Below, piece after piece: positions 35,711 to 47,328 of a DNA stretch of 64,000 nucleotides. Origin of the DNA: Emcibacter nanhaiensis (GTDB lineage: Bacteria > Pseudomonadota > Alphaproteobacteria > Sphingomonadales > Emcibacteraceae); contig NZ_VFIY01000004.1 of the NCBI RefSeq assembly GCF_006385175.1, forward strand, positions 558,001-622,000, read 5' to 3'. The number at the start of each line of letters is the position of its first letter. Position 1 is the first letter of the stretch. Both the position numbers and the translations under genes were made by a program. The notes beneath the pieces were generated by a model, which saw nothing but the letters and a program-made list of their open reading frames with translations, did not search any database and was not told where the DNA came from.

Positions 35711-38452
35711 TTACTCCTCGGCTTCACCTTCAGGCGCTGCAGAAGCGGTGTCTTCGCCGGCCGCACCATTTTCCTCGCCTTCTTCCTCTTCCTCATCGCC
35801 GGTATCTGTCACCCGTTCCACGGACACGATATGTTCATCGTCACCGACCTTGAACAGGGTCACGCCCTGGGTGTTGCGGCCGGCGATGCGGACGTCGTGA
35901 ACCGGCACCCGGATCAGGCGGCCCTGGTCGGTCACCATCATCAGCTGGTCCTGCTCCTCGATCGGGAAGGCCCCGATGACGTCGCCGTTACGTTCCGAGG
36001 TCTCGATATTGACGATGCCCTGGCCGCCGCGGTTGGTCACGCGATATTCATAGGCCGAGGTCCGCTTGCCATAGCCGTTGACGGTAACGCTGAGGATGAA
36101 TTCCTCCTGCGCCTGCAGTTCGGCAACCCGGTCTTCGCCCATACCTTCCGGCAGTTCCGGCTCCTCGCCGCGGCGCAGGGCATTGGCGTACCTCAGGTAG
36201 TTATCGCGCTCTTCCATGACAATGTCGGTGCCTTTGAGGATCGACATGGACACCACTTCATCGCCCTCGGCCAGCCGGATACCGCGCACCCCGTCGGAGT
36301 TGCGGCCTTTGAACAGGCGCACCGCGGTGGCGTTGAAGCGGATACATTTGCCGCCCTTGGCCGCCATCAGCACATCATCGCTCTCCTCGCAGGCAGCGAC
36401 CCCGATCAGCTTGTCCCCTTCGCTGAGCTTGATGGCGATCTTGCCGTTGGCGCGGACGTTGGAGAAATCGCTGAGCAGGTTGCGGCGGATATTGCCCTTG
36501 GAGGTGGCAAAGACCGCATGCAGCTCGCCCCAGCTGTCCTCATCCTCCGGCAGCGGCAGGATGGTGGAAATGGTTTCGTCCTGCTGCAGCGGCAGGATAT
36601 TGATCAGGGCCTTGCCCTTGGACTGCGGCGTGCCCGGGGGCAGCTTCCAGACCTTGAGCTTATAGACCTGCCCCAGATTCGAGAAAAACAGCACCGGCGT
36701 ATGGGTGTTGGCGACAAAGACGTTCTGGAGGAAATCCTCCTCTTTGGTCTGCATGCCGCTGCGCCCCTTGCCGCCACGCCGCTGGGCCCGGTAGGTGGTG
36801 AGAGGCACCCGCTTGATGTAGCCCGAGTGGGTCACGGTCACGACCATGTCTTCCTTCTGGATCAGGTCCTCGTCATCGATATCGCCGAATTCGGCCGGGA
36901 CGATTTCGGTGCGGCGCGGGTTGGCGAAGGCTTCGCGGTAGGCGACAAACTCGTCACGCATGATGCCGTAGAGTTTTTCTCTGGAGCGCAGGATTTCCAG
37001 ATATTCCTCGATTTCCTCGGCCAGCTGTTGCAGTTCGCCGCCGATTTCTTCCCGGCCCAGCGCGGTCAGACGATGCAGGCGCAGTTCCAGGATCGCCCGG
37101 ACCTGGGTCTCGGTCAGGATATATTTGCCGTCAACCACGCCGCGGCCCGGTTCGTTGATCAGGTTGATATAGCTTTCCACATCAACCGCATCCCATTCCT
37201 CGGCCATCAGGGCCTCGCGGGCGGCGGCCGGGTTCGGCGCCTTGCGGATCATGGCGACAATCTTGTCCAGGTTGTTGACCGCAATCACCAGGCCGACCAA
37301 CACATGAGCCCGGTCCCTTGCCTTGCCGAGCTTGAACTTGGTGCGGCGGGTAATCACTTCCTCGCGGAAGCGGATAAAGGCCTCCAGGATATCGCGCAGG
37401 TTCATCACCTGCGGCCGGCCGTTGTTCAGCGCCAGGGTGTTGGAGCCAAAGCTGGTCTGCAGCGGGGTATAGCGGAACAACTGGTTAAGCACCACTTCCG
37501 GCACCGCGTCGCGCTTAATCTCGATCACCACGCGCACGCCCTGGCGGTCGGACTCGTCGCGGATTTCGGAAATGCCTTCAATGCGTTTATTGCGGACCAC
37601 ATCGGCGATATGTTCGATCATGCGCGCCTTGTTGACCTGATAGGGCACCTCGGTGACGATGATGGCTTCGCGGCCCTGGCGGATTTCCTCCACATGGGTC
37701 TTGCCGCGCATGACGATGGAGCCGCGGCCCGTCATCGCCGCCTGGCGGGCGCCGGAAGAGCCCATGATCAGGCCGCCGGTCGGAAAGTCCGGCCCCGGCA
37801 CAATCTCGATCAGTTCCTCTAGGCTGGTTTCCGGATTGTCCACCAGCGCACAACAGGCGTCCAGCACCTCGCCCAGGTTATGGGGCGGAATATTGGTCGC
37901 CATACCGACGGCGATCCCGCCCGCGCCGTTGACCAGCAGGTTCGGGAAGCGGGCCGGCAAAACCCCGGGTTCATGTTCGGATTCGTCATAGTTGGGATGG
38001 AAATCGACTGTGTCCTTGTCGATGTCTTCCAGCAGGCCGCCGGCGGCCTTGTCCATGCGCGCTTCGGTGTAACGCATGGCGGCGGCCTTGTCGCCGTCCA
38101 TGGAGCCGAAGTTGCCCTGGCCGTCGATCAGCGGCAGGCGCAGGGAGAAGTCCTGCGACATGCGGACCATGGCCTCGTAAATGGCGCTGTCCCCGTGCGG
38201 GTGGTATTTACCCATGACGTCACCGACCACGCGGGCCGACTTGCGGTAGGGCTTGGTCCAGTCATAGCCGTTTTCATACATGCTGTAGAGGATTCGGCGA
38301 TGCACCGGTTTCAGGCCGTCACGCACGTCCGGCAGGGCGCGGCTCACGATCACGCTCATGGCGTAATCGAGATAGGAGGTTTTCATTTCCTCCTCGATGG
38401 TGATGCTTGAAATGTGTGGATCCGTGGGGTCTAGAACGACATTATCACTCAA
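35711..38452 (-). CDS. gyrA: DNA gyrase subunit A
   Basis: 913 residues. The DNA-cleavage domain has the catalytic Tyr in '[10 protein letters not shown]'. The quinolone-region motif '[17 protein letters not shown]' has Ser at the E. coli 83 position and Glu at 87, the sensitive-type arrangement. The GyrA box QRRGGKG is present in the C-terminal beta-pinwheel, so it should wrap DNA and supercoil rather than act as topoisomerase IV. It ends in a long acidic tail of about 30 residues rich in Glu. The stop is 3 bp from coaD. Confidence 0.98.
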
Positions 38453-38729: not shown

Positions 38730-39674
38730 TCAATTAAATCCAGAAATCCGGGCATAGGGCGAGACAAAATCGATATGCGCCGCTTCCTCCCCGGCCCCGA
38801 GCGCCAGATGGATACCCCCGGCGGGCTCGTTCAGTTGCGAATTGATCGACCAGTCGACCTGATCCGACGGCGCCAGCGCGCCGAAGCCCACTTCGGTGAG
38901 GTTGCCCCGCATCATGTCGTCGGTATAGGGCAGGATTTCCGGCAACAAGTCCTGCCCATCCCTGGTCAGGATGCGGGTCATTGTTGAGTCCCGGACTTCC
39001 AGCACCAGCGGAAATTCTCCGTTACTATATCTTTGCGCCAGCATCGACCAGATCTTATGGGCCGGGGGGCCGGACTCAAAATGGCTGTGCAAATGGTGAG
39101 CAACAGACACCCCGTTGCATGCCAGGGTGCCGGTCACATTGAAGGACCCATAGTCGTCGCTGGGCACCAGGCCGATCTCGAAAAACTGGATGATGCTGAT
39201 CCATTCGCCGTGGGAAAGCTCGGGTTTAAGCTTGGGCGCAAACACATCCACATTGTCGCCAAGCTCGATCTGCAGATGACATCCTTCGGAGTCGACCGAC
39301 AGGATATCCCGGGTATGCTGGATATTTTCGATGGCCCTGCGGTTATTGGCACAGGCCGCCGCAAAATCGAGTGTCCCCAGCCGGTTATGCATATAAGCAA
39401 TAGACCTGTCGTCATGGGCAAAGGCCAGCAGTGGAACAAGCAACACGGCTGAACCGGACAACCGCCCATTCAACTCCACATTGGGGTGAATGGCCGGCAC
39501 CGCCGGAACCAATAAAACCTCCTCGGGAATGCCACCCCTGTCATTGCAGACATCGTCAACAGAAAGGGTTCTGAATCCCGACGCCTTGAACTTGTCCAGC
39601 AGGGAGCGGCAATCGCTGACCACCGTCGGCAATTCCTTCGAGGGGAAGATTTCCCTCAATCCCTCAAATGACAT
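38730..39674 (-). CDS. Divergent M29-aminopeptidase/NicX-fold protein, function unknown
   Basis: 314 residues. The C-terminal third follows the M29 (aminopeptidase T) pattern: Glu157 in 'LSHGEWIS', Glu261 in 'LTEVGFGAL', His289 in 'GGIHLALG' and His300-x-Asp302 in 'AAHIDFVSP'. These correspond to the metal ligands of that fold, which is also used by the iron-dependent dioxygenase NicX. It is about 100 residues shorter than typical M29 enzymes and its first 120 residues are not recognisable. It could be a peptidase, a ring-opening dioxygenase, or something new. Its ATG overlaps the stop of a 73-residue gene (TGATG), so both are made together. No nearby gene suggests a pathway. Confidence 0.6.
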   Translation of the reverse strand: MSFEGLREIFPSKELPTVVSDCRSLLDKFKASGFRTLSVDDVCNDRGGIPEEVLLVPAVPAIHPNVELNGRLSGSAVLLVPLLAFAHDDRSIAYMHNRLGTLDFAAACANNRRAIENIQHTRDILSVDSEGCHLQIELGDNVDVFAPKLKPELSHGEWISIIQFFEIGLVPSDDYGSFNVTGTLACNGVSVAHHLHSHFESGPPAHKIWSMLAQRYSNGEFPLVLEVRDSTMTRILTRDGQDLLPEILPYTDDMMRGNLTEVGFGALAPSDQVDWSINSQLNEPAGGIHLALGAGEEAAHIDFVSPYARISGFN

Positions 39675-39895
39675 CAGGGCTGCCCGGGCTCAACCCCTCT
39701 CTTCTTGGCATCCTCGATGATATGCTCGGCAGCCTCCTTGAAAGCCTTGTTAATCGCCTCGCTTGGATAGGAAATTGTATAAGTAACCCGTCGTGTTGGC
39801 TCAGCTTCCGATACCCTGTGCGTGCCGGTGCTGATTGTGACTTCGGAGACATCCTGATCGCCGGCGCCAACAAATTTCAATTTTCTTTCCGCCAT
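39674..39895 (-). CDS. Small hypothetical protein coupled to the M29-like gene (73 aa)
   Basis: 73 residues from ATG 39895, which has an excellent AGGAGGAG site; a longer frame to 39958 lacks one. The protein is basic at the start ('AERKLKFVGAGD'), has a central Thr/Ser/Val-rich strand-like stretch ('EVTISTGTHR', 'RRVTYTISYP') and ends in an amphipathic helix ('INKAFKEAAEHIIEDAKKRG') and 'VEPGQP'. No Cys, no signal peptide, no known family. Coupling to the M29-like gene suggests it is a partner subunit or the substrate of that protein. Confidence 0.7.
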   Translation of the reverse strand: MAERKLKFVGAGDQDVSEVTISTGTHRVSEAEPTRRVTYTISYPSEAINKAFKEAAEHIIEDAKKRGVEPGQP

Positions 39896-39989
39896 ATTCT
39901 CCTCCTGCGTGCTTTTTTGATATATATACATCCTATAATTGTTTTGCAGTTTTTTCAATGAAACTTAGGAGAAATCTAATGTCATAAAA

Positions 39990-40013
39990 AAAGCAGGCCC
40001 GAAGACCTGCTTT
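39990..40013 (-). terminator. Terminator of ssb
   Basis: Stem AAAGCAGG (39990-39997) and CCTGCTTT (40006-40013). On the minus strand it is followed by TTTTTATG, 28 bp after the ssb stop. Confidence 0.75.
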
Positions 40014-40040: not shown

Positions 40041-40535
40041 CTAGAACGGGATTTCGTCATCCATGTCGCCGCCGCCGGACGGGGCTGATCCGCCCCCGGA
40101 GCCGCCACCATAGCCGCCACCGGAGGAGCCGCCGCCGAAGTCATCACCACCGCTGGAGAAGCCGCCACCGGAAGAGCCTTCATTTCGGCCGCCGAGCATG
40201 GTCAGCTCGCCGCGGTATTTCTGCAGCACCACCTCGGTGGTGTATTTTTCCTGGCCTGACTGATCGGTCCATTTGCGGGTCTGCAGCGCGCCCTCGATAT
40301 AGACGGTGGAGCCTTTTTTCAGATACTGCTCGGCCACCCGGCACAGATTCTCGTTAAAAATCACTACCCGGTGCCATTCGGTCCGCTCCTTGCGCTCCCC
40401 GGTCATCCGGTCTTTCCAGGTCTCGGACGTCGCCAGGCTCAGGTTCACCACCGGTGAGCCGTCCTGGGTATGGCGCACTTCCGGATCACGGCCCAGATTC
40501 CCCACCAGAATGACTTTATTGACACTTCCTGCCAT
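40041..40535 (-). CDS. ssb: Single-stranded DNA-binding protein
   Basis: 164 residues. OB-fold ('[20 protein letters not shown]', 'TEWHRVVIF', '[14 protein letters not shown]') to about residue 110, then a Gly/Ser-rich flexible linker, ending in the acidic tip DDEIPF that recruits repair and replication proteins. It is divergent from uvrA with a LexA box in the 173-bp gap, 93 bp from its ATG, so it may be partly SOS-controlled. Confidence 0.97.
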
Positions 40536-43910: not shown

Positions 43911-45488
43911 ATGCTGAAACAGACACAGGGTAAATTTGATTCCGATTCAGACTATCTAAATTCCGCCGCCAAATATGATATTTCTCCGCTTCACGGGAAA
44001 ATCATCGAAAGCATCCCCATCAATGTGATGGTATGCGACAAGGAAACATTCACCGTTACCGGCGCCAACCACACCAGTATCCAGACACTTCGAAAGCTTG
44101 AACATCTTATTCCCATCAGGGCCGATGAGCTTATCGGCACCTGTATCGACCAGTTCCACAAACATCCGGAACATCAGCGTAAGCTGCTGGCCGACCCGGC
44201 CAACCTCCCCTACAACACCACCATCTCGTTGGGCGAGGAATATCTGGACCTGCTGGTCCAGGACCTGGATGCAGACCATCTGCTGCTGACCTGGTCGCTG
44301 GTCACCGACCGGGTAAAGACGGAACGTGAAACCGGCCAGTTGCTGGACATGCTGGACAAGATGCCGCTCAACATCATGACCTGCGACCCGGAAACCTTCG
44401 AAATCAACTATGTCAACCAGACCAGCCTGGAAATGTTGCGCAAGATCGAGCACCTGCTGCCGGTCAGGGCAGAAGACGTCAAGGGCAGTTCAATCGATAT
44501 TTTCCACAAAAACCCGGAAATACAGCGCCGGATATTGAGCAATCCGGATAACCTGCCCCACCAGGCCCGCATCCAGCTTGGTAATGAAACCCTGAATCTG
44601 CGCATCTACCCCATCTTCGGAAGCACAGGTAAGTTCAGACGGATCATGGTGTCCTGGGATGTGATTACAGCCCAGGCACTGGTCGAAAAGGAAGTTGAAC
44701 AGATTTCGTCACAGGTCTCCGCCGCGGCGACACAGCTGACCATGACATCCGAGCAACTGAACGTGCAGGCGGACCAGGCCCACGAAAAAGCGGCCCATGC
44801 CGCCGGTGAGGCTGCACAGACCTCCGCCAGTGTCAAAAATGTCGCCGCCGCCACCGAGGAAATGACCGCCAATATTTCCGAAATCCAGCGGCAAATCAAT
44901 CATTCCATGTCGTTTGTACAGCAAGCCGTCGACCAAAGCCGTGACACATCGGAAACCATCAAAACCCTTGATGTCGCCGCCGGTGAAATCGGCTCCGTCA
45001 TCAAGCTGATTGAGGATATTGCCGGCCAGACCAACCTGCTCGCGCTCAACGCCACCATCGAGGCGGCCCGGGCCGGAGAAGCCGGCAAGGGGTTTTCCGT
45101 GGTTGCGTCCGAAGTCAAGAACCTCGCCACACAGACGACGCAGGCAACCACTGATATCACCAACCGGGTCGAGGAAATTCAGAATTCCACCCAGAAGTCA
45201 GTGGAAGCCATTCTCAAGATTTCGGAAACCATCCAGACCGTCAATGATGCCTGCGGCGCCATTAACGACGCTGTGAACGAGCAAAGCGGCGCCACGGCGG
45301 AAATCAGCCGTAACATCCAGCAGGAAGCCGGAAGGTCGGAAAAAATGTCGGATAACCTTGGCGAGATAAACCAGATTATCGACAAAACCGGCATCTCCTC
45401 ACAGGAACTGCAGGCGGCCGCCCGGGAACTCAACAATATGGCCAGGAAACTGTCGGAAGACATTCAGAATTTGCTGAAAAAATCCTGA
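43911..45488 (+). CDS. Soluble methyl-accepting chemoreceptor with two PAS-like domains
   Basis: 525 residues, AGGGGGAG ribosome site. No membrane segment, so it is cytoplasmic. Two repeated sensor units of about 110 residues each begin '[10 protein letters not shown]' and '[10 protein letters not shown]' and share '[12 protein letters not shown]' / '[12 protein letters not shown]' and 'FHKxPExQR'. A methyl-accepting signalling domain follows from about residue 265, with the tip '[20 protein letters not shown]'. The conserved Cys and His of the sensor units could bind a metal, haem or flavin, but this is inference. No che operon is adjacent. A close paralogue follows downstream. Confidence 0.9.
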
Positions 45489-45741: not shown

Positions 45742-47328
45742 ATGCTGAAGTTCAAGGGTAAAAAGACTCCCCATAAAATCGCTGCGCCTATTTCTCAAAG
45801 CATCATCCAGGAAAACAATTCGTCATCACTCCACCAAACAGTGATGGAAGCTATTCCACTCAATGTGATGGTTTGTGACAAGGAATCATTTGTCATTACA
45901 CACGCAAACCGGGCCAGTTTGCGAACTCTCAAGAAACTGGAACATCTCATTCCGATCAAAGCCGACAATCTGATCGGCACCTGTATCGATGTCTTTCACA
46001 AGACACCTGAACACCAACGGAAACTGCTGGCCGACCCGGCCAATCTTCCCTTTCAGACGGTCATCTCCCTCGGTGAAGAACACCTGGATCTCATGGTGCA
46101 GGACCTGGACTCGAAAAACCTGCTGCTGACCTGGTCGGTGGTTACCGAAAAAGTCAATATTGAGCGGGAAACCGAGCAGCTCCTGAACATGCTGGACAAG
46201 ATGCCGCTCAATATCATGACCTGTGATCCGCAAACCTTTGACATAAACTACGTCAATGCGACCAGTGTCGAGACCCTGAAAAAAATTGAATCCCTGTTGC
46301 CGGTGAAAGCCGATCAGGTTCTGGGCAGCAATATTGATATTTTCCATAAAAATCCGCATATGCAGCGTGAACTGCTGAGTGATTCCGCGAAGCTCCCCCA
46401 CAAGGCGCGCATCAAACTTGGTGAAGAGACCCTGTTGTTACGGATCAATCCTGTTCACAACAGCAGTGGCAATATCGATCGCATCATGGTGACCTGGGAT
46501 ATCGTCACCAACCAGGTGCGTGTCGAAGAGCAAACCACCCAGATTTCCAATCAGGTTGCTTCTGCGGCTTCACAGCTGTCCGCCACATCCGACTCCCTGA
46601 ACGGGCTGGCGGATGACGCACGCCAGCGGACGGCCGAGTCCTCCGACAAGGCGGAGCAATCCGCCGGAAGCGTCAAAAATATTGCAGCCGCCACGGAAGA
46701 GATGACGGCCAATATCGGAGAGATCCAGCGTCAGGTCAATGCAGCTATGATGGTTGTCAATGAAGCCGTCAACCAGGGCAAGGAAACCATGGACACCATT
46801 CGGAACCTGGATCAGGCTGCGGCGGAAATCGGCGCCGTCATCAAACTGATCGAGGATATCGCCAGTCAGACCAACCTTCTGGCGCTCAACGCCACGATCG
46901 AGGCCGCCCGGGCGGGGGAATCCGGCAAAGGGTTTGCCGTTGTTGCCGGTGAAGTGAAGAACCTGGCAACCCAGACAACCCAGGCCACCACTGACATCAC
47001 CAGTCGCGTGGAAGAAATCCAGAGTTCCACAAAAAGGTCGGTGGAAGCCATCACCAAAGTGTCAGACAGCATTCAATCGGTTAGCGACAGCTGCAGCCTT
47101 ATCACGGGCTCCATCAACGAACAAAGCAGGGCAACGACAGAAATCAGCGTCAACATTCAGGAAGAGGCCGGCCGTTCCACAGTCATGTCCGAGAATATCT
47201 CCCGCATCTCCAGCATCATTGACGAGACCGGTGCGTCTTCACAGGAAGTACAAGCCGCTGCCCGGGAACTCAATAAACTGGCGAGAAACCTCGCCCAGGG
47301 CATCAGTCAGTTGTTGCAGGACCAATAA
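45742..47328 (+). CDS. Soluble methyl-accepting chemoreceptor, paralogue of the preceding gene
   Basis: 528 residues with the same build as its neighbour: two PAS-like units ('[10 protein letters not shown]', '[10 protein letters not shown]', each with FHKxP) and a signalling domain with '[20 protein letters not shown]'. It can be aligned with the gene at 43911 along its whole length, and each protein also carries the internal duplication, so a domain duplication came before the gene duplication. The two first helices differ most. It has its own promoter with a CtrA box, which the first gene lacks, so timing in the cell cycle may differ. Confidence 0.9.

Follow-up and report, generated by a model that had tools for sequence, protein, structure and literature searches.

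A CgnB-like metalloprotein gene and a small conserved gene form a candidate mobile two-gene cassette in Emcibacter and prophages

Crocagin-type proteins and the layout of the locus

The CgnB/CgnE family was described in 2023 (Adam et al.) from Actinobacteria, Cyanobacteria, and Beta-, Gamma-, and Deltaproteobacteria (PMC10070186), and our library search returned no further papers on CgnB. CgnB and CgnE, which take part in making the RiPP crocagin, bind its precursor CgnA with micromolar affinity, and the tetracyclic core requires CgnB, whose zinc ligands are E161, E252, E274, H280, H291, and D293; both proteins differ from aminopeptidases in that the dimer region is absent (PMC10070186). CgnB is thought to perform metal-assisted ring chemistry on a peptide, at a proposed step that follows hydroxylation by CgnC. 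In crocagin, CgnB works jointly with CgnC and CgnE.

We analyzed a 64,000-nucleotide stretch of the Emcibacter nanhaiensis genome (hereafter, the window), where a gene for a 314-aa CgnB-like protein follows a gene for a 73-aa protein between ssb and gyrA (Table 1). Both frames were found where a preliminary description had placed them, joined by a TGATG in which the stop of the small gene and the start of the large gene have one base in common. The small gene starts with an ATG at 39895, preceded by CAGGAGGAGAAT, and stops with a TGA at 39674-39676; the strong ribosome site claimed for it is indeed there, as an AGGAGG just before the ATG. The candidate promoter was not significant, as one site was found versus 1.6 in shuffles, and its position at the small gene is only suggestive. 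A search for RNA families in the region returned none. Upstream of the small gene, we also noted 22-nt inverted arms at 39900-39921 and 39984-40005. Elsewhere in the window, two tandem, very similar chemoreceptor-like genes with PAS-like repeats and a signaling domain (43911-45488 and 45742-47328, + strand) are apparently a duplication.

Table 1. Features of the two-gene locus and its flanks, in window coordinates.
Feature	Position	Strand	Remark
Small conserved gene, presumed substrate/partner	39674..39895 (stop included)	-	73 aa
CgnB-like M29-fold metalloprotein gene	38730..39674	-	314 aa, ATG at 39674
Ribosome-binding site AGGAGG	39896..39910	-	just 5' of the small-gene ATG, from sequence
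Possible sigma-70-like promoter TTGAAA-17-TAGGAT	39930..39958	-	~35 nt before the small gene
ssb	40041..40535	-	upstream flank, outside the cassette
gyrA	35711..38452	-	downstream flank, outside the cassette

Family, fold, and metal site of the 314-aa protein

By sequence and predicted fold, the 314-aa protein belongs to the CgnB/CgnE family, to which it is nearer than to M29 or NicX. A phmmer search of the PDB matched CgnB (6zsv, from Chondromyces crocatus; E 3e-13) and CgnE (6zsu; E 8e-8), and a search with the family profile returned CgnB (E 1e-51), CgnE (E 1e-31), and no other entry. The AlphaFold2 model (pLDDT 88, pTM 0.86) gave CgnB as its best Foldseek match (E 4e-23, TM ~0.8) and CgnE as the next, and the likeness spans the whole length in both sequence and fold, with no extra domains. 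At ~23% identity to CgnB, the large protein shares with it a whole-length fold, six metal ligands, and an adjoining small gene; the CgnB partner, however, is the 21-aa basic CgnA, whereas the partner here has 73-79 aa and is roughly neutral, and CgnC, CgnD, CgnE, and CgnL are absent beside the 314-aa gene.

The M29/NicX fold that the preliminary description had proposed is present in the predicted structure, while the nearest family proved to be CgnB/CgnE. AmpT, PepS, AmpS, and NicX followed at E values of 1e-7 to 1e-9 and TM 0.4-0.5. The three M29 aminopeptidases (AmpT 2ayi, PepS 4ics, AmpS 1zjc) share the core fold and the position of the metal site but are only 11-14% identical to the 314-aa protein, which lacks their N-terminal dimer region; the deviation that had been noticed in the first 120 residues agrees with this known difference between CgnB/E and aminopeptidases. 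NicX (2,5-dihydroxypyridine dioxygenase, PDB 7cn3) shares the core fold at TM ~0.48 and differs in being a small-molecule iron enzyme with 13% identity; we know of no small peptide partner of NicX. Membership in Peptidase M29 was not borne out, with no Pfam family assigned and the aminopeptidase fold matched only partially. Neither protein of the pair was covered above threshold by Pfam, NCBIfam, PHROG, or PADLOC, so that the word "unrecognised" used earlier holds for these collections but not for the large protein, whose family is published (PMC10070186).

All six CgnB ligands are kept, as E166, E261, E283, H289, H300, and D302, and homology and the predicted fold show the dinuclear metal site to be intact. 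Of the ligands listed previously, Glu261, His289, His300, and Asp302 stand; Glu157 has to be replaced by E166, and Glu283 had been omitted. The six residues are present in all five pair members and in other relatives, except in CgnE and, at the E166 position, in distant Streptomyces proteins. CgnE has the same fold and has lost two of the ligands (Lys and Tyr in CgnE) that the 314-aa protein keeps. The CgnB-like gene is single-copy in the Emcibacter genome, with no second, CgnE-like copy, and is thus a single-copy member with its metal site retained.

An M29-like fold, an intact two-metal site, and a small partner predicted to be unfolded are also what one would expect if the 314-aa protein were an active M29-descended metallopeptidase and the small protein its cleaved substrate or a propeptide-like regulator. 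We consider this improbable: The nearest relatives, CgnB and CgnE, displayed no aminopeptidase activity and are missing the dimer region of aminopeptidases (PMC10070186), and the middle and C terminus of the small protein are more conserved than a trimming substrate requires.

The small protein and the occurrence of the pair

The small protein (MAERKLKFVGAGDQDVSEVTISTG...TYTISYPS...KKRGVEPGQP) has four homologues: L010 (a Yersinia frederiksenii prophage, to which the IMG/VR contigs L008, L009, L022, and L023 are identical in sequence), L011 (an alphaproteobacterial MAG), L012 (Acinetobacter), and L024 (an IMG/VR contig). These came from an alignment query, a single-sequence scan of genome contigs having given no match. 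Across pair members, the proteins are 73-79 aa long with pairwise amino acid identities of 47-77%, compared with 19-44%, near random, at codon position 3, which argues that the frame is selected as a protein; the small frame of the preliminary description is thus real and conserved. The alignment displays an M(AE/AK)R-like start, SEV.IS.G.H, an invariant TYTISYP, and a conserved helix-like C-terminal segment. With 11 Ser/Thr among 73 residues, the protein is hardly the Ser/Thr-rich one it had been called; it has 11 K+R versus 12 D+E and neither Trp nor Cys. A structure model from four sequences (pLDDT 56) was disordered outside a C-terminal helix (46-66), a disorder that its low confidence leaves unproven. 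Sub-threshold matches to DUF6641 (E 0.015) and a HicB-like PHROG (E 0.04) were discarded, and matches of the small-protein profile to designed TIM barrels were judged composition artefacts, as no single stretch passed alone. No paper with TYTISYP was found in a library search.

The pair was observed in five unrelated places: the window, the Yersinia prophage, a Pseudomonas-type prophage, Acinetobacter, and the alphaproteobacterial MAG. In each of them, the small gene precedes the large one, with an overlap of 1 nt in the window and 4 nt in the others, and the pair members form one clade on the tree (support 100/99), while comparison of the surrounding genes across the five places revealed nothing in common. 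In the Yersinia prophage, the genes on either side of the pair match the small and large terminase genes in PHROG; the edge of the Pseudomonas-type prophage around the pair carries lysis and SOS genes (umuDC, Rz) and a chemotaxis gene, named from their translations, of which PHROG confirmed UmuD, and the DNA of this prophage is related to Pseudomonas phages; the Acinetobacter region has a transposase-like fragment nearby; and the surroundings in the MAG are unremarkable. In three genomes of the same family as Emcibacter (L036, L043, and L050), gyrA directly follows ssb and the pair is absent, and the pair is likewise missing in front of the large terminase gene of Pectobacterium phage ZF40 and of an E. 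coli prophage, where a DUF2280 or terminase gene comes immediately before it. Since these neighbors adjoin directly in relatives, at least two of the five occurrences of the pair are insertions.

The pair is rare. Of the genomes sampled from the order (149), the class (385), and the phylum (398), only the window's own carried it; a single weak match in the phylum sample (L007; E 1e-4, 88 positions) probably represents an M29 enzyme. We detected no copy in annotated phages or in E. coli genomes. As to whether the two genes keep company, a comparison that the preliminary description had called for, they do travel together, with no constant third enzyme alongside: Across the five loci, no CgnC-like oxygenase, protease, or exporter was a constant companion, and the top oxygenase-like candidate in the rest of the Emcibacter genome was a weak match (E 6e-5, 28% identity). 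The mirror-tree correlation of the two proteins was 0.71, which 6 of 120 label permutations also reached and which thus lends only weak support.

Patchy occurrence, accessory positions in prophages for two of the five copies, and an overlapping order of small then large gene could also mark an accessory that prophages carry for toxin-antitoxin or anti-phage purposes, in which the small upstream gene would encode the antitoxin. PADLOC families were unmatched, the HicB-like PHROG match mentioned above was the only one of its kind, and the known biochemistry of the family is peptide modification; such a function therefore seems unlikely to us. The missing crocagin tailoring genes would also fit a degenerate, nonfunctional remnant of a crocagin-like cluster, but all five distant copies have both genes undamaged and maintained by purifying selection, and we regard this as very improbable.

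Small genes across the family and the proposed role of the pair

In every other family clade that we examined, a clade-specific small gene adjoins the CgnB-like gene. Neighboring small peptides end in YW in the cyanobacterial clade, and Dolichospermum combines a crocagin-like YW-ending peptide with dioxygenase-like and glycosyltransferase-like genes and a second CgnB-like copy. CPC-ending small genes occur in Nocardioides, Thermus, Deinococcus, and Ktedonobacterales, where they are accompanied by ABC or MFS exporters or an NDP-hexose dehydratase; CPC tails were found in only 6 of the 568 ORFs of CPC-type loci, with the neighboring small genes counted in. Short peptides ending in SFSYAR[I/V] lie just downstream of CgnB-like genes in Actinomadura (L018:11050-11202 and L020:7844-7966). 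Two Streptomyces plasmids (L025:5484-6759 and L026:5199-6492) encode a distant CgnB-like protein with Leu at the E166 position, next to a 40-46-aa ORF ending in SKYGKYDRLEG, a GntD-type hydroxylase, and an NRPS, a candidate mixed ribosomal/non-ribosomal cluster. On the tree, four small-gene label groups required three changes, the minimum, and none of 200 shuffles was as low. This is the pattern expected if each small gene encodes its neighbor's substrate, although the grouping is support rather than proof and partly restates relatedness.

In a Thermus plasmid (L002:7656-7913), Nocardioides (L013:9671-9904), and Ktedonobacterales (L014:9304-9606), the tails read CPC plus 2-4 residues, and the small genes lie directly 5' of CgnB-like genes, some near exporters or deoxysugar genes; they may represent an undescribed RiPP type. 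Upstream of the CgnB-like gene on a plasmid of Deinococcus sp. QL22, the product of a small gene (L003:7614-7910) carries three EVKF(T/S)YAPE repeats and a C-terminal CPCGTF and has the look of a RiPP precursor with several cores. Homology of the small protein of the pair to CPC peptides, considered for its RKLKFVGAG / RQVVFAGG resemblance, was unsupported (hhalign E 0.1).

On balance, our judgment tips slightly toward the pair being a mobile cassette reduced to two genes, with a CgnB-type metalloprotein that binds the small protein and modifies it. The 314-aa protein would act as the peptide-binding metalloprotein and the 73-aa product as its dedicated protein substrate, the overlap presumably coupling their translation so that both are made together. 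The large protein may grip its largely unfolded partner and modify or cyclize it, with the invariant TYTISYP or its immediate vicinity as the likeliest target; the metal site would serve as a Lewis acid, a role suggested for CgnB at the crocagin core Tyr. Because no oxygenase, leader protease, or exporter lies alongside, the reaction would be performed by the CgnB-type protein alone or finished by host enzymes. The context supports spreading of the cassette by insertion, in two cases inside prophages, in the manner of accessory, moron-like genes.

The constant linkage and overlap of the two genes, in one clade over five unrelated contexts, support the substrate reading, as does the strong conservation of a small protein predicted to be unfolded save for one helix. 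Against it stand the conserved sequence along most of the small protein, where many RiPP precursors have a variable core; the absence of a positively charged CgnA-like leader and of Trp and Cys; the lack of significant similarity to CPC-type peptides; and the lack of a constant oxygenase, protease, or exporter of the crocagin kind. The crocagin-type precursor end Tyr-Trp was not found, as the small protein ends in GVEPGQP, nor was the crocagin-type set of two CgnB/E copies with a CgnC-like oxygenase, a protease, and a methyl- or glycosyltransferase: We found a single CgnB-like copy, ssb and gyrA as neighbors, and no good oxygenase match.

The preliminary description had left the small protein as subunit, chaperone, or trimmed substrate. 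Its idea of a peptide partner is well supported, and the wider family favors a substrate over the other two. If the small protein helped with folding or metal loading, or were a constant subunit in a metalloenzyme that acts on another target, this would explain the strict linkage, the translational overlap, and its conservation along the whole length, but CgnB and CgnE are soluble monomers that have no partner of this kind (PMC10070186), and the unrelated-looking, precursor-type small genes of other clades are not predicted for a helper, which leaves this option with a small probability. A bolder form of the substrate reading, to which we give a fairly low probability, is a phage-borne stand-alone system in which a CgnB-type protein by itself, without an oxygenase, introduces a novel modification into a conserved 73-79-aa protein at TYTISYP. 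If so, the modified small protein would act inside the lysogen or on competitors.

The fold and family were already known; what is new, as judged from sequence, is a variant that lacks the crocagin oxygenase, protease, and exporter. Its mobile two-gene form with a conserved 73-79-aa partner appears undescribed in the literature that we searched. The family thus extends beyond biosynthetic clusters to mobile elements and prophages, and a clade made up of a CgnB-like protein plus one conserved candidate substrate would offer the simplest setting for finding this fold's intrinsic reaction.
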